Of a stretch of DNA of 64,000 nucleotides, positions 14,270 to 27,651 are shown in pieces. The position numbers and the translations under genes are program-made. This stretch comes from Aliivibrio fischeri (GTDB lineage: Bacteria > Pseudomonadota > Gammaproteobacteria > Enterobacterales > Vibrionaceae): the NCBI GenBank assembly GCA_038993745.2, contig CP160629.1:2666001-2730000 (forward strand). Reading direction: 5' to 3'. A model generated the notes under the pieces. The model searched no databases. It was not told where the DNA came from and saw only the letters and a program-made list of their open reading frames with translations. The first letter of the stretch is position 1. Each line of letters opens with the position of its first letter.

Positions 14270-14495
14270 AAAAAACTCAATAAGTTTCGATTTGAAAGAA
14301 GTTTAGTTTCGTTTTATTTAATTGTCTAGCCCTTCAAATTAATTCGTTTTAAATATTAAGATCCTTATAAAAATGCGATTCAATGCTTTAGAGATAATGA
14401 GTTAGAGAGGCAGCTCAGATTTTAGCGACTAAAAATTGCTCAAAACACAAGAGGATGTTAATTTTATTTTATAACTTATAAGGAATCTTGTAGCC

Positions 14496-15125
14496 ATGGA
14501 CGACAACTACACTATTATCATTGCAGACGATCACCCCTTATTTCGCAATGCACTTTTTCAATCTATCCACATGGCAATCAGTGGTGCAAACCTACTAGAA
14601 GCTGATTCATTAGAGGCGTTATTAAAAGTATTAGAGAAAGAACCTGAACCTGATTTACTGCTCTTAGACTTAAAAATGCCAGGTAGTAATGGCATGTCAG
14701 GATTAATCCAATTACGCTCTCAATATCCTGATTTACCCATTGTGGTTGTCTCTGCGAGTGAAGAAGCAAGTATTGTCTCTCAAGTTAAAACCCATGGTGC
14801 ATTCGGTTTTATTCCTAAATCCAGTGACATGAAGTCGCTTATCGGGGCACTTAATCAAATTTTAGCGGGGGATTCCTATTTTCCTGCAGGAGCAATTAAG
14901 AACTCAGCAGCTTGCGATGATTTAGCGACAAAAATAGCCGCGCTAACGCCTCAGCAATATAAAGTACTCGGAATGTTGTCAGATGGGTTGCTCAATAAAC
15001 AAATTGCGTATGATTTAGAAGTATCAGAAGCCACAATAAAAGCACACATGACAGCAATCTTTAGAAAGTTAGGAGTGAAGAATCGCACTCAAGCCGTCAT
15101 TCTTTTACAACAAACGGAAAGTTAA
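14496..15125 (+). CDS. crbR: NarL/LuxR-family response regulator CrbR (acetate switch)
   Basis: A 209-residue two-domain regulator. The receiver domain (1-125) has the acidic pocket ADDHP (Asp11/Asp12), phospho-acceptor Asp58 in LLLLDLKMPG, and the conserved Ser/Lys switch residues (VVSAS, FIPKSS). The C-terminal LuxR-type helix-turn-helix (about 145-207) reads LTPQQYKVLGMLSDGLLNKQ. In vibrios CrbR with the kinase CrbS activates acs and related genes when cells switch to using acetate. Identification rests on the domain layout and on being in the same cluster as a symporter-type kinase, an acetate-type symporter and acs. Confidence 0.82.
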   Translation: MDDNYTIIIADDHPLFRNALFQSIHMAISGANLLEADSLEALLKVLEKEPEPDLLLLDLKMPGSNGMSGLIQLRSQYPDLPIVVVSASEEASIVSQVKTHGAFGFIPKSSDMKSLIGALNQILAGDSYFPAGAIKNSAACDDLATKIAALTPQQYKVLGMLSDGLLNKQIAYDLEVSEATIKAHMTAIFRKLGVKNRTQAVILLQQTES

Positions 15126-15249: not shown

Positions 15250-15872
15250 ATGATAAGTATCCTCGTAACTCAATTTGTTGTTCTTTGGGCCGTAATTGAC
15301 CCTATTGGCTCAGTTCCTGTCTACCTTTCACAAACTCAACACCTTTCAGCTAAGCAACGTAAACTGGTTGCCCTAAAAGCCGTTGCTATCGCTACTTTAG
15401 TTTTGCTCTTTTTCCTCATCGTTGGTCAATTATTATTAGAAGCAATGCAAATCCCATTACCGGCTTTTCAGGTTGCGGGTGGTTTAGTGCTATTAATTTT
15501 TGCTCTCACGATGATCTTTGGCGAAAGTAAACCAGAGCAAGAACAAAAAATGAGTGAGGAAATGAGTCATTCTGATCTTGCTGATCTTGCCGTATACCCT
15601 CTAGCTATCCCATCTATCGCTTCACCGGGGCTATGATGGCTATCGTCATGCTGACCGATAATTCTCGTTACTCCATACTTGATCAATCAATCACAGCGGG
15701 TGTCATGCTCGTTGTTCTATTGATAACGTTAGGTTTATTGCTTGGAGCTACATTTATTCAAAAAGTCATTGGTAATGTTGGGGCCGCTATTATTAGTCGA
15801 GTCATGGGGTTAATTTTGGCTGCTGTTGCTGTAAATAACTTACTCATGGGAATTAAAGATTTCTATTTTTAA
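15250..15872 (+). pseudogene. MarC-family (NAAT) inner-membrane protein, frameshifted
   Basis: Two frames together give a roughly 207-residue, six-helix MarC/YhgN-type membrane protein. It starts MISILVTQFVVLWAVIDPIG and contains a charged loop after the third helix. The first frame ends SIASPGL at a stop at 15634-15636; the second continues MMAIVMLTDNS. Adding one G to the GGGG run at 15627-15630 gives the family motif IPSIASPGAMMAIVML, so one base is missing. No other lesion is seen. Function of the family is unclear; the old link to multiple antibiotic resistance was withdrawn. A GGGAG site precedes the ATG. The gene may be intact in the living strain. Confidence 0.82.
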
Positions 15873-15965: not shown

Positions 15966-15973
15966 ATCCGCTC

Positions 15974-15983
15974 GACTAAAGTT
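15974..15983 (+). promoter_or_regulatory. Candidate CrbR box upstream of the symporter operon
   Basis: GACTAAAGTT, the dyad GACT-2-AGTC with one mismatch, 73 bases before the first ATG of the operon. The same nine bases GACTAAAGT occur before the DUF294 gene and before acs. Confidence 0.5.
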
Positions 15984-16055
15984 GCACTGTTTTCCTTTTA
16001 TTCCGCTGCTAACCTCTTTTATGTTACAAACTTTTAACATAAAAAGGAGCTGGCT

Positions 16056-16322
16056 ATGGCGTTTGAAACACAAGAACAAGCACAAGCCTACTGGAAAGAA
16101 AATTTGGGGATCATGGGCAGCTTGCTTGCGATTTGGTTCTTAGTCTCGTACGGCGCAGGGATATTATTTGTTGATGCACTTAATACCGTTCAATTTGGTG
16201 GATTCAAATTGGGGTTCTGGTTTGCTCAACAAGGTTCAATTTATACCTTTGTGGCACTGATCTTTATCTACGTTGCACGCATGAATGCACTAGATAAAAA
16301 ATACAACGTACAGGAAGACTAA
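16056..16322 (+). CDS. DUF4212 small subunit of a sodium:solute symporter
   Basis: An 88-residue membrane protein with two helices (about 19-44 and 60-80). The family signature is clear: AYWKENLGIMGSLLAIWFLVS, then FKLGFWFAQQGSI, and the end YVARMNALDKKY. DUF4212 proteins are always encoded just before a large sodium:solute symporter and are thought to be its small subunit. Here the large subunit follows 11 bases later with its own AGAGG site. An AAGGAG site precedes this gene. E. coli yjcH-actP is an analogous pair with a different small protein (DUF485). Confidence 0.85.
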   Translation: MAFETQEQAQAYWKENLGIMGSLLAIWFLVSYGAGILFVDALNTVQFGGFKLGFWFAQQGSIYTFVALIFIYVARMNALDKKYNVQED

Positions 16323-16333
16323 GAGGAATTATC

Positions 16334-18037
16334 ATGGGTATCCAAACTTGGACGTTTATACTAGTCGGTATTACCTTTGCGCTCTATATAGGGATTGCGA
16401 TTTGGGCTCGCGCCGGCTCAACAAGTGAGTTTTATGTTGCTGGTGGCGGGGTTCACCCTGTAGCTAATGGCATGGCTACGGCAGCCGATTGGATGTCTGC
16501 AGCTTCATTTATTTCAATGGCAGGTATCATTTCCTTTGTTGGTTATGATGGTGCTGTATATCTTATGGGTTGGACTGGCGGTTATGTACTGCTCGCTCTC
16601 TGTCTTGCTCCTTATCTACGAAAGTTTGGTAAATTTACCGTGCCAGATTTTATCGGTGAACGTTACTACTCCAAAACCGCTCGTATGGTTGCGGTATTCT
16701 GTGCCATCTTTGTTTCTTTCACTTACGTGGCAGGGCAAATGCGTGGTGTAGGTGTGGTGTTCTCTCGATTCCTAGAAGTAGATATAAACATCGGTATCAT
16801 TATTGGTATGGGTATCGTATTTTTCTATGCGGTACTGGGTGGTATGAAAGGCATCACTTATACGCAGGTAGCTCAATTCTGTGTCCTCATTTTCGCCTTC
16901 CTTGTACCTGCAGTATTCACTTCAATCATGATGACAGGTAACGTATTCCCACAAATTGGTATGGGATCTACGGTTACTGGCTCTGAAGTCTACTTATTAG
17001 ATAAGTTGGATGGATTAACCACTGAACTCGGTTTTACCCCATACACTGACGGATCTAAGAGCATGGTTGATGTCTTCTTTATCTGTGCAGCACTAATGGT
17101 GGGTACGGCTGGACTTCCTCATGTAATTATTCGCTTCTTCACAGTACCTCGTGTTAAAGATGCACGTATCTCTGCCGGTTGGGCATTACTGTTTATCTCA
17201 TTCTTATACACCACTGCGCCTGCGGTTGCTGCGTTTGCTCGTGTAAATATGATTGAAACCATTAATGGTCCAGATAGCCAAGGGGTTGCAGCAGCAGATG
17301 CACCCAGCTGGTATAAAAACTGGGAAGACACAGGTCTCGTTGGTTGGGATGATAAAAATGGCGATGGCAAAATGTTCTACTCTGGTGATGAACGTAATGA
17401 AATGGACATCAACCGAGATATCATCGTACTGGCATCACCTGAACTGGCAAACTTACCAAACTGGGTTGTAGCACTATTAGCTGCCGGTGGCTTAGCTGCC
17501 GCGTTATCAACAGCTGCGGGTCTACTACTGGTAATCTCAACATCTATCTCCCATGATTTATTGAAGAAAGGCTTTAAGCCTAACATGACCGACAAACAAG
17601 AGCTACTCGCCGCCAGATTAGCTGCCATCGTTGCTATTGTTGGAGCTGGTTATTTAGGGATTAATCCTCCAGGCTTTGTTGCACAGGTGGTTGCCTTCTC
17701 CTTCGGTTTAGCCGCAGCGTCCTTCTTCCCTGCGATTATTTTAGGTATTTTCTATAAGAAGATGAATAAAGAAGGGGCGATTGCCGGTATGATTTCTGGT
17801 GTTACCTTTACCACGGCTTATATTGTTTACTTTAAGTTCATTAACCCAGCAGCAAGCACACCTGATAACTGGTGGTTTGGTATCAGCCCAGAAGGAATTG
17901 GTACGCTAGGTATGTGTGTGAACTTCATTGTTTCAATTGCAGTAAACAAAGTAACCGCAGAAGTACCTAAAGACGTTCAAGATTTGGTTGAATCTATTCG
18001 TTTCCCGAAAGGTGCAGGCGAAGCGCACGATCACTAA
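16334..18037 (+). CDS. Sodium:solute symporter large subunit, probable acetate/monocarboxylate transporter
   Basis: A 567-residue SSS (SLC5) family permease with about 13 helices. Family hallmarks: FYVAGGGVHPVANGMATAADWMSAASF near the N-terminus, GRYY-type ERYYSKTARMVA, VGTAGLPHVIIRFFTVP around residue 255, and GGLAAALSTAAGLLLVIS around residue 385. It contains a hydrophilic insert (about 305-360) rich in Asp and Gly (DDKNGDGKM), reminiscent of a calcium-loop. Pairing with DUF4212 and its place between CrbR, CrbS and acs suggest acetate or a similar short carboxylate as substrate; the substrate is inferred. It ends at a clear terminator and converges with crbS. Confidence 0.85.
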   Translation: MGIQTWTFILVGITFALYIGIAIWARAGSTSEFYVAGGGVHPVANGMATAADWMSAASFISMAGIISFVGYDGAVYLMGWTGGYVLLALCLAPYLRKFGKFTVPDFIGERYYSKTARMVAVFCAIFVSFTYVAGQMRGVGVVFSRFLEVDINIGIIIGMGIVFFYAVLGGMKGITYTQVAQFCVLIFAFLVPAVFTSIMMTGNVFPQIGMGSTVTGSEVYLLDKLDGLTTELGFTPYTDGSKSMVDVFFICAALMVGTAGLPHVIIRFFTVPRVKDARISAGWALLFISFLYTTAPAVAAFARVNMIETINGPDSQGVAAADAPSWYKNWEDTGLVGWDDKNGDGKMFYSGDERNEMDINRDIIVLASPELANLPNWVVALLAAGGLAAALSTAAGLLLVISTSISHDLLKKGFKPNMTDKQELLAARLAAIVAIVGAGYLGINPPGFVAQVVAFSFGLAAASFFPAIILGIFYKKMNKEGAIAGMISGVTFTTAYIVYFKFINPAASTPDNWWFGISPEGIGTLGMCVNFIVSIAVNKVTAEVPKDVQDLVESIRFPKGAGEAHDH

Positions 18038-18067
18038 TAACAAGTTAATAATGACTTAAATGAATAA

Positions 18068-18097
18068 GGGAGTAAGCAAATGCTAACTCCCTTTTTT
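18068..18097 (+). terminator. Rho-independent terminator of the symporter operon
   Basis: Stem GGGAGT-A-AGC / GCT-A-ACTCCC with a 4-base loop and six T on the plus strand. Confidence 0.85.
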
Positions 18098-18113
18098 ATC
18101 ACGTAAAAATAAA

Positions 18114-21100
18114 CTAAGAGCTAGCATGACGGTTCAACACTGCTCTTAATTTCAATGGTTTTACTGGCTTTGAAATAAACCCAAACCCATTACTTTTGAT
18201 GCTATCTAGCAATTCTTCAGTCTTATCTGCACTGATCATCACCCCTTCGAACTGGTTACCTAAACGCAAACGGCATTGCTGCAATACCTCTAATCCTGTT
18301 CTGTCGTTATCTAATCGATAATCAGAAAAAATCACATCTGGGATCCAGTCACCTTCCAAACAATGCAAGCTACCAAATAGATCCGTTGCGGTTTTCACTT
18401 CACAACCCCAACGAGAAATCAGAGACTCCATACCAACAAGAATATCAGGCTCATTATCAACACATAGTACTCGTACTCCACTTAATGGTAATTCAAGCTT
18501 TGGAGTTACCGTAGGCATTTTACTCTCAACCAGAACTCCTCTCTCAAGTGTCACCGAAAATACCGATCCTTTATCAAGCCATGAACGCAGTGAAATCGTA
18601 TGCCCTAATACATGAGAAATACCACGAGCAATCGCCAATCCCAAACCTAACCCTTGATCTGCTCGACTTTGATCGACCCGAGTAAACTCATCAAAAATCG
18701 CCTGCTGTTTCTCTTCTGGAATACCGATACCATTATCCCAAACATCAATTCGGATTTGGTCTCCTACTCGCCTTGCTCCGAGCACCACTTTTCCTTGAGG
18801 GTTATATCGAAACGCATTAGTTAAAAAGTTTTGTACCACTCGACGTAATAATTTTGAATCTGACTCCACCACTACATCAGAATGAATCACTGAAAAATCA
18901 ATATTCTGCTGCTTGGCTAAAGCCCCAAATTCCGCTTCTAAATTAGAAAATAATGTCCCTAATGAAAAACCTTGAATGTGTGTTTCTAACTTACCCGCTT
19001 CCAAGCGAGAGATATCAAGTAAATCACCAATTAACTCTTCTGCGGCTCCTAAAGCACTTTCTATATGCCCTGATATTTTTTGCGTTTCTTGATCTTTTGC
19101 AACTTCATTTAATGAAGAAGCAAACAGTCGAGCCGCATTCAATGGCTGCATTAAATCGTGACTTACCGCAGCAAGTAGACGTGTTTTTGATTGAGAAGCC
19201 AACTCTGCACTTTGGGTTGCACCAACCAATCGCTGATTTAATTTTTCTAATTCTTTGGTTCGTTCATGGACTCGTGATTCAAGAGTCTCATTGGTTTCTT
19301 TTAACGCTTTTTCTGCCTGTCTAAAGACGGTGATATCGGTAAAACTCATTACAAATCCACCATTGGGCATCGGGTTTCCCTGAACCTCGATAACTTGCCC
19401 ATCAGCTCGAACACGAGAAGATACATGGCGAGTTCGCCTCTCCAAATGCTCTACTCGACGCTTTACGTGCATTTCAGGATCACCCGGCCCACATAACCCT
19501 TGCTCAGCATTGTGGCGGATCACATCGGCTATTGGTCTACCCACTTGAATTAACCCCGGAGGGAAAGTAAATAACTCTAAGTAACGTTGATTCCATGCCA
19601 CTAATTTCATCTGCTTATCAACCACAGCAATACCTTGGCTAATATGCTCAATCGCCCCTTGCAACAATCCTCGACTAAAATCATACAACTCAGAAGCTTC
19701 ATCAACGATGGTTGCCACCTCCTCCAACTGCATATTGCGACCCTGAAGTGCCGAAGTTAATACTAAACGAGAAGAAGAAGCCCCAAATACACCCGCCAAA
19801 ACACGCTCGGTATGACGAATTAACGCAGAGCTAGCTTGCTGTTGTGGTTGTAATGTTTCACCTTGTTGATTCGAGAATTGACGAAAGGCTTTTTGTGCAC
19901 GTCTACGCCCAACAAACCGTGAAGCTAACATTTCTAATTCACCCACCGTCACGCGAGTTTGATACACACTCACATCTTCATTTTCAGGCAATGGAGCACC
20001 AACAAAAGAAGCCGCTTGTAAACGTTCACTCAATGAGGCTCGAGTCACTAAAGAAACCAAGATAAAGAGAATAGAATTCAAACTAAGACTGAGCATCATT
20101 CCCCAATCCGATGTCATCACATTAAGAGATTGCAACCACTCAGGAGGGGTGATGACCCACAGCAAAAAGTTATTTTCAGCGCTGCCAGCAAGCATTTGAG
20201 TTTGGCTCATTAACGTGATTAGCCACACAAGGAAACCAATAATTAAACCTGCATATACGCCTTTTCTATTTCCTTGTCGCCAGTACAAACCACCGATTAA
20301 TGCTGGGGCAAATTGCGCTATAGCAGCAAACGCCAATAACCCAATAACGGATAACGAATCAATAGAATCGAGGGCTTGATAAAACCCCCATGCTCCCAAT
20401 AACAGAAGTAAAATGAGTGCTCGACGAATAGAAACAAGCAAATGAGAAAAATGACTAAAAGTACGTGATGTCGTTTTTACTTTGCGTAACAACAAAGGCA
20501 ACACCAGATCATTAGAGACCATAATAGCCAATGCGATGGTTGATACGATCACCATTCCACTGGCGGCGGAAGTCCCTCCAACAAAGGCGAGCAACGCCAT
20601 ATTCTCAGCACCAACAGAGAGCGGAACACTAATAACAAAACTATCACTAACACCACCTGAGAGCAGCGCTTGTCCTGCCAAGAAATAGGTAAAACAAACA
20701 AACCAATTAAAACTAAATAGCTTGGAAACACCCAGCGAGCAGTTCTTAAATCCTGCGCTTGTTCATTCTCTACGACTGTCGTGTGAAACTGACGCGGCAA
20801 ACAAACTATCGCCGCCATAGTTAAAATCGTATGAAATAAAAGCGTGATTACATTTGGAGATTGATACGTTTCTTTGGCTATAGAGAACAAATCCACCTTA
20901 GGTTCTGAGTAAGCCAAATAAAAAATAAACACGCCAACCATTAAAAAAGCAACGAGCTTAACGATCGATTCAAAAGCCACCGCCATCATCAAACCACGGT
21001 GATGCTCTGTAGTATCAATGTGTCGAGTTCCAAATAGGATTGTAAAAATCGCGAGCGCTGCACCAACAAACCAAGAGATATGCCCATCTTGATACCCAAA

Positions 21101-21553
21101 GTCTTGCGCTAAATTAGGCGCAACCAGATCGAGTCCCATGGTGATCCCTCGCAATTGCAAAGCGATATAAGGAAGAATCCCGATGACGGCAATGATGGTT
21201 ATAACCCCAGCAAGACCTTGCGATTTCCCATAACGTGCTGCAATAAAATCAGCTATTGAAGTGATGTGCTCACGCTTGGCAATCAAAATAATACGAGCCA
21301 AAAAACGCCATGCAAAAACAAAAACAAAAATAGGAGCAAGATAAATAGGAAGAAAAGACCACGGGTTATTAGTGGCTTGGCCTACGGTGCCATAAAAGGT
21401 CCATGAGGTGCAGTAAACAGCAATTGAAAGGCTATAAATCCATGGGCGGTATTGAGCTAACCACCCTTTTTGACGATCACCATACCAGGCAATTAAAAAT
21501 AATAATCCCAAATACGCCAGCGAAACTGGCACCACAATCCATCCTTGTGTCAT
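18114..21553 (-). pseudogene. crbS: Hybrid sensor histidine kinase CrbS with N-terminal symporter domain, frameshifted
   Basis: Two overlapping frames combine to about 1145 residues. Order: SLC5/SSS-type membrane domain of about 13 helices (N-terminal 500 residues), linker, PAS-like domain (SQGIAVVDKQMKLVAWNQRY), a coiled coil, HisKA (phospho-His in AAVSHDLMQPLNAARL), HATPase (VQNFLTNAFRYNP, GLGLGLAIARGISHVLG), and a C-terminal receiver with Asp in VIFSDYRLDNDRTG. The N-terminal frame is lost after FVLPIS near 20683. One extra base in the AAA run at 20683-20685 (TTT on the minus strand) restores PIFLAGQALL. The ATG at 21553 has AAGGATGAG before it. CrbS is the partner of CrbR. Mutation or sequence error remains open. 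Confidence 0.88.
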
Positions 21554-21583
21554 CACTCATCCTTGGTGAGACCATTCTAGCGA

Positions 21584-21633
21584 TATAAAAAACGCCAGAA
21601 GGTGCATTTATTCTGTAGCACCATTCTAGCGTT
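21584..21633 (-). terminator. Rho-independent terminator after the HcaT-like gene
   Basis: On the minus strand AAACGCTAGAATGGTGC pairs with GCACC-TTCTGGCGTTT (one bulge) around a 12-base loop, followed by a T-run. It separates the MFS gene from crbS on the same strand. Confidence 0.8.
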
Positions 21634-21672
21634 TAATTATTGCTTCGTTTTTATACAAGCTGACAAATGTGA

Positions 21673-22814
21673 TTAAGACTTCACTTTATCGAGTTTAATC
21701 AACAAAGCGAATACCCCCATCGCTGCCATCAACCAGAATATATTCGCTCCCCACGCTTCGTACCCCAACCACTTAAGGTTGTCATTAATGCGATGAATGC
21801 GCCAAGCGGAATCGCATTATATAGCGCTTGTAATGCCACCATTTTATTTTGTGGGAATTTTTGAATGTATTGAATTGCTGCAAGGTGAGCCATTGCGAAT
21901 GTCACGCCATGTAAGGCTTGCACTAATACCAAAGCAAATAATTCTGTGGTTGCGGCAGTTAATCCCCAGCGAATCACAACACCAATAGCAGCAACTTTAA
22001 ATAAGGTTGATGTTTTCCAACCTGCAAATAATTGCTTACTAAACGCAAATACCATCACTTCAGCAACAACACCTAAGCTCCATAAATAACCAATGGTACT
22101 TTCTTGGTAACCAGATTCTTTCCAATAAATTGAACTAAAACTGTAATACGCTGCATGACTACCTTGAATTAATGCCACCAACACAATGAATTTCACAATT
22201 GGAGCTTCAGTTAATAGAGCTAATAATTTTGGTCGTTCATTATCTTCATCTGATACCGACACTGGCATTGGATTAGGATTTCGCATCACTAACACTAACG
22301 CCGCTAATATACCGGCAATCGCCGTGTAGACGATCATATCGGTACCAAAACCCGATACCAAATAACCAACAACAGTGGAACCAGCAATAAAACTAACTGA
22401 ACCCCACAAACGCGTACGCCCATAATCTAATAAGTTATTTTTCGCGTAGTAGTTAGTCATCGCATCGGATAACGGAACCGCTGGACCACAGGATAAATTG
22501 AATAAAACGGTAACGATAGCAAGCCACCAAAAGCTCGCCCCATTAACTAAAAAGAGAGCAAGGGCTATCAAAGAGGCTAAGGATAATAATCGCAACGCAG
22601 GTACTATGTGTTCAACGCGATGCAACCTTGGTGTAATCACCAAATTAGCAACACAACGAGTTGCAAAACCTAACCCAATAAGAACACCAATATCTCCGGC
22701 AGAAACACCTTGTTCTTCAAACCATAACGCCCAAAAAGGTAAATAAACCCCATAAGCAAAAAAGAATCCGCCAAAATATTGAGAGATCCAAGCAAAAGGT
22801 GAAACCCGTAACAT
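21673..22814 (-). pseudogene. HcaT-like MFS transporter (3-phenylpropionate permease family), frameshifted near the C-terminus
   Basis: About 380 residues with 12 predicted helices. Similar to E. coli HcaT over its length: FFFAYGVYLPFWALWF, LDYGRTRLWGSVSFIAGS, ALIQGSHAAYYSFSSIYW, VGYLWSLGVVAEV-type YLWSLGVVAEVMVFAF. The frame breaks after LSGWG: the present stop is at 21729, but one more C in the CCCC run at 21763-21766 gives WGYEAWGANIFWLMAAMGV and a stop at 21673, completing the last helix. Thus only the last helix is affected. The start is placed at the ATG at 22814, because the 30 upstream residues do not match the family. Substrate unknown. Confidence 0.8.
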
Positions 22815-22948
22815 GATGATGTCCAAAAGGAAGTAAAAAGAGGCGGTTATTATGGCATCGTATTGATTTATAAAAAGGGAAAATAGAACAGAAGAAAAAT
22901 GCACCTTTTAAAATGTGACTTTGGTTTCATATTCATACCAATCTCCTA

Positions 22949-22958
22949 GACTAAAGTC
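22949..22958 (+). promoter_or_regulatory. Candidate CrbR box upstream of the DUF294 operon
   Basis: Perfect dyad GACTAAAGTC (GACT-2-AGTC), 61 bases before the ATG at 23020; same core as upstream of the symporter operon and acs. Confidence 0.5.
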
Positions 22959-23019
22959 GTCTTCATTATTGCTCACTTTTTCATGAAAATAAGGGAAATT
23001 GCTGACTAAGGATGGGGCC

Positions 23020-24852
23020 ATGCCAAATGACATTAACTTTTCACTTGCTCCGTTTAACCGACTAACTTCAGAGCAACAAGAAATAATCACGAAAAATACG
23101 GATATTGCTTACTTTCGAGTAGGCGATACGATTATTCATGAAGGTCAAACGTCAGACAATCTATTCATTATCATGAAAGGATCCGTTGAAGAGCGCTCAG
23201 ATACCAGTGGGGAAATTTATGCCCACTATACCCATGACGATATTTTTGATGTGCGCTCTCAATTTGAACATCAAGTAAAACACAGTTATATCGCTCTAGA
23301 AGATACCCTTTGCCACCTGCTTCCTACTCAACTTTTTCTTAAGTTATATAATGAAAATCAAGCCTTTTCTGACTACTTCAATAGCAGTCTAGCCAAACGA
23401 AAAGCCTTACTTACTCAAGCTCATCAGCAACAGAACTTAGCCGAATTTATTCTCACAAAAGTCGATGATGAAACAACTCAACAATGCCTTATCGTCGATA
23501 GGAATACTCCCTTACAACAAGTTACTCAACTTCTGAAAGACAATAACATGGATGCGTTATTTGTTGAGTTAAACCAATATGATACTCGTCATCAAGAAGC
23601 TCAGAACAATTTACCTTTTGGTATTGTCACTCGCACAGACTTACTGCACGCCATTATGATTGATGGGTATGCGGCAAACCATCCTGTAGGAGCGATTGCA
23701 ACTTATCCTATTGTGCATATTCAACAACAAGATTATTTGTTTAATGCCATGATGCTAATGACACGCCACCACGTAAAAAGAGTTGCAGTACTAAATAAAA
23801 ACAAACTGATTGGCATGCTTGATATGACGCAAGTGCTAAGCCTATTTTCAACTCACTCACATGTTCTTACCTTAAGAATTGCTCGCGCCGAACATATTGA
23901 TGAGCTTGTCTTAGCAGCAAATACTCAAACTCAACTCGTAGAGACCTTAATCAGTAACGGCATTCGAACGCGTTTTATTATGGAGCTTATTTCAACGGTA
24001 AATGAACAGATAATCGAAAAAGCATTTAGCCTAGTGGTACCCAAAAGCTTACATGATCATTGCTGCCTGATTGTGATGGGGTCAGAAGGTCGAGGTGAGC
24101 AAATTTTAAAAACCGATCAAGATAATGCACTGATCATAAAAAATGGTCCTGAATGGCATAACTTGCCCCAATTAATGAGCCAATTTACGCATACCTTACA
24201 GCAACTCGGTTATCCATTGTGCAAGGGAAATGTAATGGTCAGTAACCCTCTTTGGGTAAAAACAGAACATCAATGGGAGAAACATATTCAGAAACTGTGT
24301 GCCGAACCAAATACTGATAATATGATGAATCTCGCTATTTTCTCAGATGCTCAAGCTGTTGCAGGAAATCAAGCACTACTGTCTCCATTAAAGCAAATAT
24401 TGATATCCAAACTCAAAGAGAATGAGATTGCTCTCAGTACTTTTTCTCGACCAGCCCTTCAATTTAATCTGCCATTAACATTTTTTGGAAATATCAAAAC
24501 AAAAAAAGAAGGGATTGATATTAAGCAAGGAGGCATATTCCCCATCGTTCATGGAGTTCGAGCGCTATCTTTAGAGCAAGGTATTGAAGAAACAAACACT
24601 TTTAAACGTATCAATGCACTACGTAAACACAACGTATTAGAGCACTCTACAGCAGATAATTTAAATGAAGCACTAAAGTTGTTTTTTAAGTGGCGTTTGC
24701 GCCATCAACTACAAGAAAAAACAGGTATTCCAAGTAACCATATTCATATTGACCGCCTCGACCGTACTGAGCGAGACCTCTTACGCCACAGTTTACACAT
24801 AGTAAAAAAATTCAAAGAATGGCTTGGTTATCATTACCAAATAAGGGATTAA
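23020..24852 (+). CDS. cNMP-binding / CBS / DUF294 nucleotidyltransferase-like protein
   Basis: A 610-residue cytoplasmic protein. Order: cyclic-nucleotide-binding fold (about 8-120: FRVGDTIIHEGQTSDNLFIIMKG), two CBS motifs (about 150-280), DUF294 nucleotidyltransferase-like domain (about 330-450: VMGSEGRGEQILKTDQDNAL, the G-S-x-G-R x10 D-x-D active-site pattern), and a C-terminal helical DUF294_C domain. The start is the ATG at 23020 with AAGGATGGGG before it; a TTG seven codons upstream is less likely. It is followed 3 bases later by a DEDDh exonuclease gene, and then acs. This pair is often near acetate genes. The substrate is unknown; the family is related to GlnD uridylyltransferases. 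Confidence 0.85.
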   Translation: MPNDINFSLAPFNRLTSEQQEIITKNTDIAYFRVGDTIIHEGQTSDNLFIIMKGSVEERSDTSGEIYAHYTHDDIFDVRSQFEHQVKHSYIALEDTLCHLLPTQLFLKLYNENQAFSDYFNSSLAKRKALLTQAHQQQNLAEFILTKVDDETTQQCLIVDRNTPLQQVTQLLKDNNMDALFVELNQYDTRHQEAQNNLPFGIVTRTDLLHAIMIDGYAANHPVGAIATYPIVHIQQQDYLFNAMMLMTRHHVKRVAVLNKNKLIGMLDMTQVLSLFSTHSHVLTLRIARAEHIDELVLAANTQTQLVETLISNGIRTRFIMELISTVNEQIIEKAFSLVVPKSLHDHCCLIVMGSEGRGEQILKTDQDNALIIKNGPEWHNLPQLMSQFTHTLQQLGYPLCKGNVMVSNPLWVKTEHQWEKHIQKLCAEPNTDNMMNLAIFSDAQAVAGNQALLSPLKQILISKLKENEIALSTFSRPALQFNLPLTFFGNIKTKKEGIDIKQGGIFPIVHGVRALSLEQGIEETNTFKRINALRKHNVLEHSTADNLNEALKLFFKWRLRHQLQEKTGIPSNHIHIDRLDRTERDLLRHSLHIVKKFKEWLGYHYQIRD

Positions 24853-24855
24853 AGT

Positions 24856-25497
24856 ATGAATTATTTACAACGACTATGGTGGCAATATAAATTACGAACT
24901 CATGAAAATTTATCCCTTTTTCATCATTATTCTGGCGATGAGTTGGTGTCTATTGATTGTGAAACAACGAGTCTAAACCCCAACCATGCCGAATTGGTTT
25001 CTATTGCTGCTATCAAGATTAAAAATAACCGAGTGTTAACCAGTCAAACTATTCATTTAAAGCTGACGCCACCACAAAGCCTAAACTCCGATTCAATCAA
25101 AATACACCAACTAAGGCATCAAGACTTGTGTCATGGATTATCTGAACAACAAGCAATGACTCAATTGCTTGAATTTATCGGTAGTCGCCCTATTGTTGGA
25201 TACCATATTCGCTATGACAAAAAAATTTTAGATCGAGCCTGCTTGCGTCATTTTTCTCACCCTTTGCCCAATTCACTGATTGAAGTTAGCCATATCTACC
25301 ATAATAAATTGGAACGACTGCTACCCAATGCGTATTACGATTTAAGTATTGAAGCTATCTCCAAACATTTAGAGCTCCCACAAACTGAGAGGCATGATGC
25401 ACTTGAAGATGCGATAGCGGCTGCGCTTATTTATGTTCGTTTAACCCATGGAGACTTCCCTGACATTCCCTCGAGTAAAAATGCCCATAGTTACTGA
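24856..25497 (+). CDS. DEDDh 3'-5' exonuclease domain protein (DnaQ-like)
   Basis: A 213-residue protein with the three exonuclease motifs: ExoI SIDCETTSL (Asp34, Glu36), ExoII IVGYHIRYDKKIL with Asp, and ExoIII RHDALEDAIAA with the His-x4-Asp pair. It therefore should be an active nuclease of the DNA polymerase III epsilon type, but lacks the polymerase-binding C-terminus and carries a short N-terminal basic helix (about 1-22). It is translationally tied to the DUF294 gene (3-base gap) and lies directly upstream of acs. No DNA-replication role is implied by the context. Confidence 0.85.
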   Translation: MNYLQRLWWQYKLRTHENLSLFHHYSGDELVSIDCETTSLNPNHAELVSIAAIKIKNNRVLTSQTIHLKLTPPQSLNSDSIKIHQLRHQDLCHGLSEQQAMTQLLEFIGSRPIVGYHIRYDKKILDRACLRHFSHPLPNSLIEVSHIYHNKLERLLPNAYYDLSIEAISKHLELPQTERHDALEDAIAAALIYVRLTHGDFPDIPSSKNAHSY

Positions 25498-25556
25498 TCT
25501 GTGTCTCAAAAAACGACTGATTTCCCCATCAATATTCAGTAAACCCTTCTTTCTCT

Positions 25557-25566
25557 GACTAAAGTC
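25557..25566 (+). promoter_or_regulatory. Candidate CrbR box upstream of acs
   Basis: Perfect dyad GACTAAAGTC, 135 bases before the acs start codon. A plausible -10 (TAATAT, 25598-25603) follows 31 bases later. Confidence 0.5.
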
Positions 25567-25701
25567 TAATTGTTGAAAAACCATTTCTAGCTGAAAGTAA
25601 TATCAACCCTACAAATAAAAAAGCAGTGCCAATGACGGTGCTGACTGAAATCCAATAATAAAATGAATCTGGATATTTGCTGTATTCACAAGGAGAACAA
25701 C

Positions 25702-27651
25702 ATGAGTGAGATTCACGTGTACCCGGTCAATCAAGATATCGCTAATAATGCACACGCTGATGATGATAAATATCGTGAAATGTACCAGCAATCCGTTATC
25801 AACCCTGAAGGCTTTTGGCGTGAGCATGGACAAATTGTTGATTGGATGACTCCTTACACCAAAGTTAAAAATACCTCTTTTGATACGGGTCATGTTGATA
25901 TTAAGTGGTTTGAAGATGGTGAGCTTAATGTATCGGCAAACTGTATTGATCGTCACTTAGCCACCCGCGGTAATGAAATTGCCATTATTTGGGAAGGCGA
26001 TGATCCACAAGACGATGCATCTATTACCTTTAATGAGCTGCACGAACAAGTTTGTAAATTCTCTAATGCATTAAAAAGCCAAGGCGTTCGTAAAGGCGAT
26101 GTGGTTTGTATTTATATGCCAATGGTAGCAGAAGCGGCTGTTGCAATGCTGGCTTGTACTCGCATCGGTGCCGTTCATACCGTGGTATTTGGTGGATTCT
26201 CTCCAGAAGCTCTCGCAGGTCGAATTATTGATTCAGATGCGAAAGTGGTAATCACTGCCGATGAAGGCGTTCGTGGCGGGCGTACCGTTCCACTGAAAAA
26301 GAATGTCGATGATGCACTGAATAACCCTGAAGTCACTACCATTGAAAAAGTCGTTGTATTCCAACGTACAGGCAATGACATTGAATGGGTTGAAGGACGT
26401 GATGTTTGGTGGCATGAAGCAACCGCGGTTGCTTCCCCTCATTGTGAGCCTGAAGCAATGAATGCCGAAGATCCACTATTCATACTCTATACCTCGGGTT
26501 CAACAGGAAAACCTAAAGGTGTACTTCATACCACTGGCGGCTACCTTGTTTATGCTGCAATGACCTTTAAATATATTTTTGATTATCAAGAAGGTGAAGT
26601 GTTCTGGTGTACCGCAGATGTAGGCTGGATCACAGGCCATACTTACTTAATTTATGGTCCTCTTGCTAATGGTGCAAAAACGATATTGTTTGAAGGTGTG
26701 CCTAATTACCCAAGCACGAGCCGCATGAGTGAAGTAGTAGACAAGCATAACGTTAATATTCTATACACTGCACCAACAGCCATCAGAGCACTAATGGCTC
26801 AAGGTACTGAAGCAGTTCAAGGTACATCGCGCAGCTCATTACGAGTAATGGGTTCAGTAGGCGAACCAATCAACCCTGAGGCGTGGGAATGGTATTACAA
26901 TACCATTGGTGATGCTCGCTGCCCGATTGTTGATACATGGTGGCAAACAGAAACTGGCGGCATTTTAATTTCCCCTCTTCCTGGTGCAACGGCCTTAAAA
27001 CCAGGTTCAGCAACTCGTCCATTCTTTGGTGTTCAACCCGCTTTGGTGGATAACATGGGCAATATCATTGAAGGTGCTACTGACGGTAACCTTGTTATTA
27101 CCGACTCTTGGCCGGGACAAATGCGTACCATTTATGGTGATCATGACCGTTTTGAACAAACCTACTTTTCTACTTTTAAAGGCATGTATTTCACCAGTGA
27201 TGGCGCTCGACGCGACGAAGATGGTTATTACTGGATCACAGGACGTGTTGATGATGTATTAAACGTATCTGGCCACCGCATGGGAACAGCCGAAGTTGAA
27301 TCTGCATTAGTGGCGTTTGATAAAATTGCTGAAGCTGCAATTGTTGGCGTACCACATGATATTAAAGGGCAAGCGATTTATGCCTATATCACCCTAAATT
27401 CGGGCGAAATTCCAAGCGCAGAGCTACATAAAGAAGTCAAAGACTGGGTTAGAAAAGAAATTGGACCGATTGCTACTCCTGACTTTTTACATTGGACTGA
27501 TTCATTACCTAAAACCCGTTCAGGCAAAATTATGCGTCGAATCCTTCGTAAAATAGCGACAGGTGATACCTCTAATCTAGGAGATACCTCGACACTAGCT
27601 GATCCAAGTGTGGTTGATAAGCTGATCGAAGAGCAAAGAAAGATAGCTTAA
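25702..27651 (+). CDS. acs: Acetyl-CoA synthetase Acs
   Basis: Activates acetate to acetyl-CoA through an acetyl-adenylate. The 649-residue protein has the ANL-superfamily motifs: P-loop [11 protein letters not shown] (about 250), [10 protein letters not shown] (about 400), the hinge-region [14 protein letters not shown], and the C-terminal [10 protein letters not shown], whose Lys is the acetylation-regulated catalytic residue. A longer frame begins 39 bases upstream, but the ATG at 25702 has AAGGAG at ideal spacing and matches the E. coli start. It is the expected target of the CrbS/CrbR system encoded upstream and lies 204 bases after the exonuclease gene. Confidence 0.97.

Follow-up and report, generated by a model that had tools for sequence, protein, structure and literature searches.

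The window analysed here is the whole 64-kb stretch of Aliivibrio fischeri DNA at positions 2666001-2730000 of contig 1, in a two-contig genome of 4,345,505 bases. It carries the following genes, given in window coordinates; the names crbR and crbS are taken from literature usage.

14496..15125, + strand: crbR, response regulator with a receiver and a LuxR-type helix-turn-helix domain (PF00072 and PF00196 matches)
Between crbR and the symporter operon: marC-like gene
16056..18037, + strand: symporter operon, with a DUF4212 small subunit (16056-16322) and a VC_2705-family sodium/solute symporter (16334-18037)
18114..21556, - strand: crbS, hybrid histidine kinase, its frame split into two overlapping ORFs in the record
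21729-22904, - strand: MFS transporter
23020..25497, + strand: DUF294-exonuclease operon, with a cNMP-binding/CBS/DUF294 nucleotidyltransferase (to 24852) and a 3'-5' exonuclease (24856-25497)
25702..27651, + strand: acs, acetyl-CoA synthetase

The best NCBIfam match of the crbR product is NF041830 (ErdR), at 250.7 bits and thus below the family cut-off of 390. The C-terminal ORF of crbS has Pfam matches to PAS_7, HisKA, HATPase_c and the receiver domain; its N-terminal ORF, where an SLC5 domain would be expected for an SLC5-STAC hybrid kinase, gave no Pfam match at 0.001. The symporter belongs to the VC_2705 family TIGR03648 (861 bits against a cut-off of 321) and does not reach the ActP equivalog TIGR02711 (137.8 bits against a cut-off of 1099). 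The DUF294 gene starts at ATG 23020, the TTG at 22999 of the ORF list not being the start seen in relatives. The CrbR of the window is 100% identical to that of one other family genome (G024), and the DUF294 protein shows 95% identity to that of A. fischeri emors.2.1.

The 9-mer GACTAAAGT occurs exactly three times in the window, always on the + strand (15974-15982, 22949-22957 and 25557-25565), and each copy is intergenic, lying 82 nt before the small-subunit ATG (16056) of the symporter operon, 71 nt before ATG 23020 of the DUF294 gene and 145 nt before ATG 25702 of acs. The original prediction had placed the sequence before these three transcription units and had extended two copies to the perfect dyad GACT-AA-AGTC, and both observations hold: the full dyad is found at 22949-22958 and 25557-25566, the copy at 15974 reading GACT-AA-AGTT. 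All three sites lie less than 12 kb from crbR. The sites, which we assign below to the published ACTU motif, and the promoter elements predicted downstream of them are as follows.

15971..15987, + strand: putative ACTU site of the symporter operon, 17-mer CTCGACTAAAGTTGCAC, core 15974-15983
16007..16015, + strand: predicted extended -10 of the symporter promoter, TGC-TAACCT, with the hexamer at +36 from the first base of the core
22946..22962, + strand: putative ACTU site of the DUF294-exonuclease operon, 17-mer CTAGACTAAAGTCGTCT, core 22949-22958
22985..22990, + strand: predicted -10 of the DUF294 promoter, GAAAAT
25554..25570, + strand: putative ACTU site of acs, 17-mer TCTGACTAAAGTCTAAT, core 25557-25566
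25593..25598, + strand: GAAAGT, the -10 predicted for acs; 17 bases separate it from a partial -35, TTGTTG, at 25570-25575

For the window, dinucleotide shuffles give a mean of 0.59 copies and reach three in 2 of 100. There is no genome-wide enrichment of the 9-mer: the 4,345,505 bases hold 21 copies, and scaling the shuffle mean of the window leads one to expect about 40. Nineteen of the copies are on chromosome 1, where random placement brings any three within 9,583 bp with P = 0.029. We consequently rejected the raw count of the 9-mer as evidence; the real support comes from conservation and context rather than from copy number.

Conservation was assessed in 121 Vibrionaceae genomes, among which a match to crbR was found in 115, to DUF4212 in 107, to acs in 118 and to the DUF294-type gene in 118, the last number including paralogues of about 27% identity. 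The upstream regions examined were 60 for acs, 54 for the symporter, 46 for DUF294 and 50 for crbR. In each class they comprised the first 30 best-scoring regions and a next 20 (16 for DUF294) picked for genus spread and as controls, to which 10 acs and 4 symporter regions were later added, mostly from genomes without other regulon members. One genome was taken per species and the species are related, so that the counts below are not independent. The core precedes acs in 56 of 60 regions, the symporter small-subunit gene in 53 of 54 and the DUF294 gene in all 46. Shuffled upstream controls gave mean numbers of matches of 0.35 per 50 for acs, 0.05 per 50 for the symporter and 0.20 per 46 for DUF294.

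Each class of promoter has a conserved context of its own. Before acs it is CTAAAGTCTAATTG, with GACT as the left half within the genus and mostly TCCT elsewhere; before the symporter it is GACTAAAGTTG; before DUF294 it is GAC[T/C]AAAGTC, followed by a G-CT tail that is conserved in most cases. The site pattern is absent from four upstream regions of DUF294 paralogues. It is also missing before acs and the symporter gene in G004 and before acs in G011, two genomes without a crbR match. Two further genomes, G041 and G067, have no site before acs despite a CrbR match of 71% identity, and these count against a simple rule that CrbR and the site go together.

Within the family, the distance from the site to a -10-like element is fixed. 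With offsets counted from the first base of the core, and nAnnnT standing for the A and T of the -10 element, this pattern is found at offset 36 in all 56 acs promoters with a site (46/46, and 10/10 among the later additions) and in all 53 symporter promoters with a site (49/49 and 4/4). DUF294 promoters have it at offset 36 in 30 of 46 and at offset 35 in the remaining 16. At any other single offset between 12 and 49 it occurs in at most 19 rows of any class. The hexamer is preceded by TGn in 47 of the 48 symporter promoters tested, and TTG at offset 13, corresponding to a partial -35 with 17-base spacing, is present in all 46 acs promoters tested and in none of the symporter or DUF294 promoters tested. 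What the present analysis shows directly is that the sites exist, that they are conserved and that they keep a constant distance from a -10-like element. By our arithmetic, the 5' RACE geometry of P. fluorescens gives a core position that agrees to about one base. This arrangement suggests that CrbR may sit beside, or replace, the -35 contact.

Context also distinguishes the three sites from the other intergenic copies in the genome. Of the 21 genomic 9-mers, sixteen fall within ORFs of 130 aa or more and five are intergenic; spacing was looked at for the intergenic copies, and nAnnnT at offset 36 was confined to the three acetate sites among them. A perfect 16-base dyad elsewhere in the genome (L016) lies between convergent genes, directly after a GGDEF gene, and was rejected as a regulon member. 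The wider pattern KMCYAAAGTC, which excludes T-ending cores (bar exact 9-mers) and centres other than AA, has 42 genomic matches. Two are the window's own, and the other 40 were classed in batches of 30, with 25 in ORFs of at least 130 aa, and of 10, with nine in ORFs. The spacing of the 25 in-ORF matches aside, no further regulon member stands out among these 40. Three matches outside such ORFs (L254, L257 and L262) show nAnnnT at offset 36 when read in one direction; they were set aside, since no ORF of 90 aa or more follows on that side for at least 691 bases. The strict search thus returns three transcription units, a number that would fit a small regulon and that rests on strict patterns.

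Across the class, we used a sample of 185 gammaproteobacterial genomes, 48 of which have DUF4212, eight a CrbR-like protein (E <= 1e-50) and six both. Among these six, the core with at most one mismatch precedes the DUF4212 gene in four (G000, G259, G145 and G282) and is absent from that position in G158 and G291. It was found before DUF4212 in none of the 25 usable regions from crbR-minus genomes; this set used 25 of 26 loci (L291 was left out), included one with only about 105 bases upstream (L295) and had 16 further crbR-minus genomes with DUF4212 outside it. The pattern nAnnnT stands at offset 36 in G000 and G259 and not in G145 and G282. Since these last two break the offset, the fixed spacing is claimed for Vibrionaceae only.

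What the conserved boxes are can be read from published work, in which the interpretation of the sequence as a CrbR operator is already known under the name of ACTU motif (Sepulveda & Lupas 2017, PMC5715377); the surmise of the original prediction that a published CrbR site may exist was therefore right. This motif is required for activation of P. fluorescens acs by CrbR: a one-point change lowers induction and a four-point change abolishes it, and with CrbR made in E. coli activation still depends on the motif (PMC5715377). Its authors report it upstream of 91 among 112 homologues from 31 species, and in their Table 3 V. fischeri MJ11 has a positive entry for each of acs, actP and the pflu5625 (DUF294) gene (PMC5715377). 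The predicted operator role for the three units agrees with the published core and gene classes and with conservation in relatives. Compared with the predicted PFLU0447 site (Table 4, PMC5715377), the acs 17-mer is equal at 14 of 17 positions. When the four P. fluorescens sites with experimental tests were turned into a matrix, a poor one given so few sites, scores above the 99th percentile of shuffles were reached by 33 of 46 DUF294 regions, by none of 50 acs regions and by 2 of the 50 symporter regions. We consider it very probable that the three sites are ACTU operators and that CrbR, controlled by CrbS, binds them and co-activates the acs, symporter and DUF294-exonuclease units. Counting against this are the matrix scores for acs and the symporter, the acs genes of G041 and G067, the CrbR-like-plus genomes of the class that lack the site or the offset, the ErdR score below the family cut-off and the split frame of crbS.

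A different regulator of acetate genes could in principle bind the dyad in place of CrbR, for instance the quorum regulator LitR, reported to induce acs in V. fischeri according to the accessible text of PMC12369385, which cites earlier work, or a LuxR-type response regulator paralogous to CrbR, some family members having such paralogues at 40-44% identity. We regard this as very unlikely, given that P. fluorescens needs both the motif and CrbR, also when CrbR is made in E. coli (PMC5715377), that each of the three gene classes in the published CrbR regulon carries the site, and that in G004, where the search cut-off yields no crbR, neither acs nor the symporter gene is preceded by it. Still further from plausible is the notion that the boxes are chance copies of a 9-mer. 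It can draw on the 21 unenriched genomic copies and on the two window shuffles in 100 that yield three, but three separate promoters have kept the box in position and sequence in different genera, at a common distance from the -10 element, and this conservation refutes it.

Whether crbR is autoregulated through a site before its own gene is a side question, independent of the identity of the regulator at the three units. The original prediction had pointed to a weaker GACTAAAAAT at 14427-14436 as such a site. This sequence lies inside a block upstream of crbR that is strongly conserved within the genus, which favours autoregulation, but it fails as a CrbR site, its right half AGTC being present in none of 13 same-genus sequences. 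Reverse-strand sequence close to it speaks for control of this kind, a half-like CTAAAGTC being found in 10 of 50 crbR regions. At -78, adjoining the 14427 site, 9 of 13 same-genus sequences have a reverse-strand CGCTAAAGTC, and G008 has GCCTAAAGTC at the same position. A further element, GACAAAAGTC, stands at about -103 in three Vibrio-type crbR regions, two of which have nAnnnT at offset 36. However, the window has only a degraded form of the reverse element, the forward-strand site pattern occurs in 0 of 50 crbR regions, and allowing up to one mismatch on either strand finds only 4 of 50. Chance alone often yields matches with two mismatches (2 of 4 paralogue controls), and in most vibrios outside the genus the upstream element is CAGACTTTTAG, one base longer. 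We therefore regard autoregulation of crbR as improbable.

For the three operators themselves, we infer binding, activation and start sites in the present organism as follows. CrbR, governed by CrbS, would bind the GACT-WW-AGTC dyad, whose axis would lie about 43-44 bp before the predicted transcription start; this geometry predicts starts near 16022, 22997 and 25605. From there it may contact RNA polymerase at promoters that have a -10 and a weak or partial -35, so that acs, the symporter operon and the DUF294-exonuclease operon would be switched on together when acetate is to be used. A more specific proposal, to which we give slightly better than even chances, is that the Vibrionaceae operator is locked 26 bp (25 in some DUF294 promoters) from the -10 hexamer, with CrbR standing in for or beside the -35 contact and active only there, that the regulon consists of the three units, and that promoter-specific flanks tune each of them. 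In the CrbR, ACTU, AcsR and ErdR literature, which we searched chiefly among open-access papers and with searches not aimed at spacing, we did not find such a spacing rule stated. What is added here to a known motif is modest, namely its constant spacing within the family and the small size of the regulon.

Judged from raw sequence, the acetate-switch operator worked out in Pseudomonas appears to hold in the lineage of a luminous symbiont, for which exact boxes and predicted start sites are now provided. Within Vibrionaceae, the fixed spacing provides a simple rule by which probable CrbR sites can be told from chance occurrences. Conserved control also draws attention once more to the products of the DUF294-exonuclease operon, two unstudied proteins made alongside the genes of acetate use.

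The sites of the window resemble the ACTU motif of P. fluorescens in being imperfect inverted repeats with the same core before the same three gene classes. They also stand just upstream of predicted promoters, as does the ACTU of P. fluorescens acs, which occupies -52 to -36, just upstream of an RpoD promoter (PMC5715377). Unlike the P. fluorescens sites, which are GC-richer, they are nearer to GACTAAAGT[C/T], and the symporter of the window is a DUF4212/VC_2705-family pair and not the ActP equivalog of the published actP operon. The orthologue of the acyl-CoA hydrolase gene pflu0110 is entered as NF in the published Vibrio rows (Table 3, PMC5715377).

Related systems are known under several names. 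In V. vulnificus, AcsR and AcsS are, as far as the accessible text of PMC4409781 goes, the same regulator and kinase as CrbR and CrbS. Gel shifts there show binding of AcsR upstream of acsA, and acsR, acsS and acsA are needed for growth on acetate (PMC4409781). The same portion of that paper gives no binding sequence and reports no increase in AcsR binding with acetyl phosphate, a result that we count against the reading proposed above, as it bears on the presumed phosphorylation step. Transcription of acs in V. cholerae requires crbS and crbR, according to the available part of PMC5436829. The ErdR of P. aeruginosa and P. putida is, in the sections available of the two reports, an orthologue of CrbR. 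P. putida ErdR is described as shifting the scpC, PP_0354 and actP-I promoters and not that of acsA-I, where the motif was not found (accessible text of PMC8402216). For P. aeruginosa ErdR, the available portion of PMC9927353 reports 15 promoters, 13 of them shifted and acsA among the targets, compared with the three units that the strict search finds here.

Two genes close to crbR, the gene of the acetate response regulator, have interrupted reading frames in the window:

18114-21556, minus strand: crbS, the hybrid histidine kinase gene, as two overlapping ORFs, the frame being split.
15250-15636, plus strand: a short marC-like gene, ending at 128 aa.

The overlapping crbS ORFs encode 335 and 855 aa; a single open frame of 1147-1152 codons is present in five of the six named relatives (L022-L026), and crbS is broken too in the sixth, L027. 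The split could mean that the acetate sensor has truly been lost, or it could stem from a sequence error. At the position corresponding to the marC-like gene, three of these loci (L023-L025) carry a 225-codon open frame. That two frames are broken only a few kb apart raises the probability of sequence error.

Upstream of crbR lies a block strongly kept in the genus:

About 14400-14445: conserved block before crbR.

In relatives it holds a reverse half-like CTAAAGTC. In the window, as in genome G061, crbR lies 8.5 kb from the DUF294 gene, whereas in G024 the distance is about 17 kb (contig 12, 231332-248278), and therefore G024 seems to carry an insertion of about 8.5 kb that separates its symporter unit from its DUF294 unit. 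In the family search, genomes G041 and G067 have CrbR at 71% identity, DUF294 matches at paralogue level only and no detected DUF4212 match; the ACTU site, the published CrbR operator, is absent from the examined regions upstream of acs in both.

A perfect 16-base dyad occurs elsewhere in the window's own genome:

L228:3979-3988: TTAGACTAAAGTCTAA, in the gap that separates a convergent GntR-type gene from a GGDEF gene.

This dyad is perhaps a terminator or a chance occurrence.

The symporter pair at 16056-18037 scores far under the ActP cut-off and belongs to the DUF4212/VC_2705 family (TIGR03647/TIGR03648), although the literature applies the name actP to the Vibrio gene.
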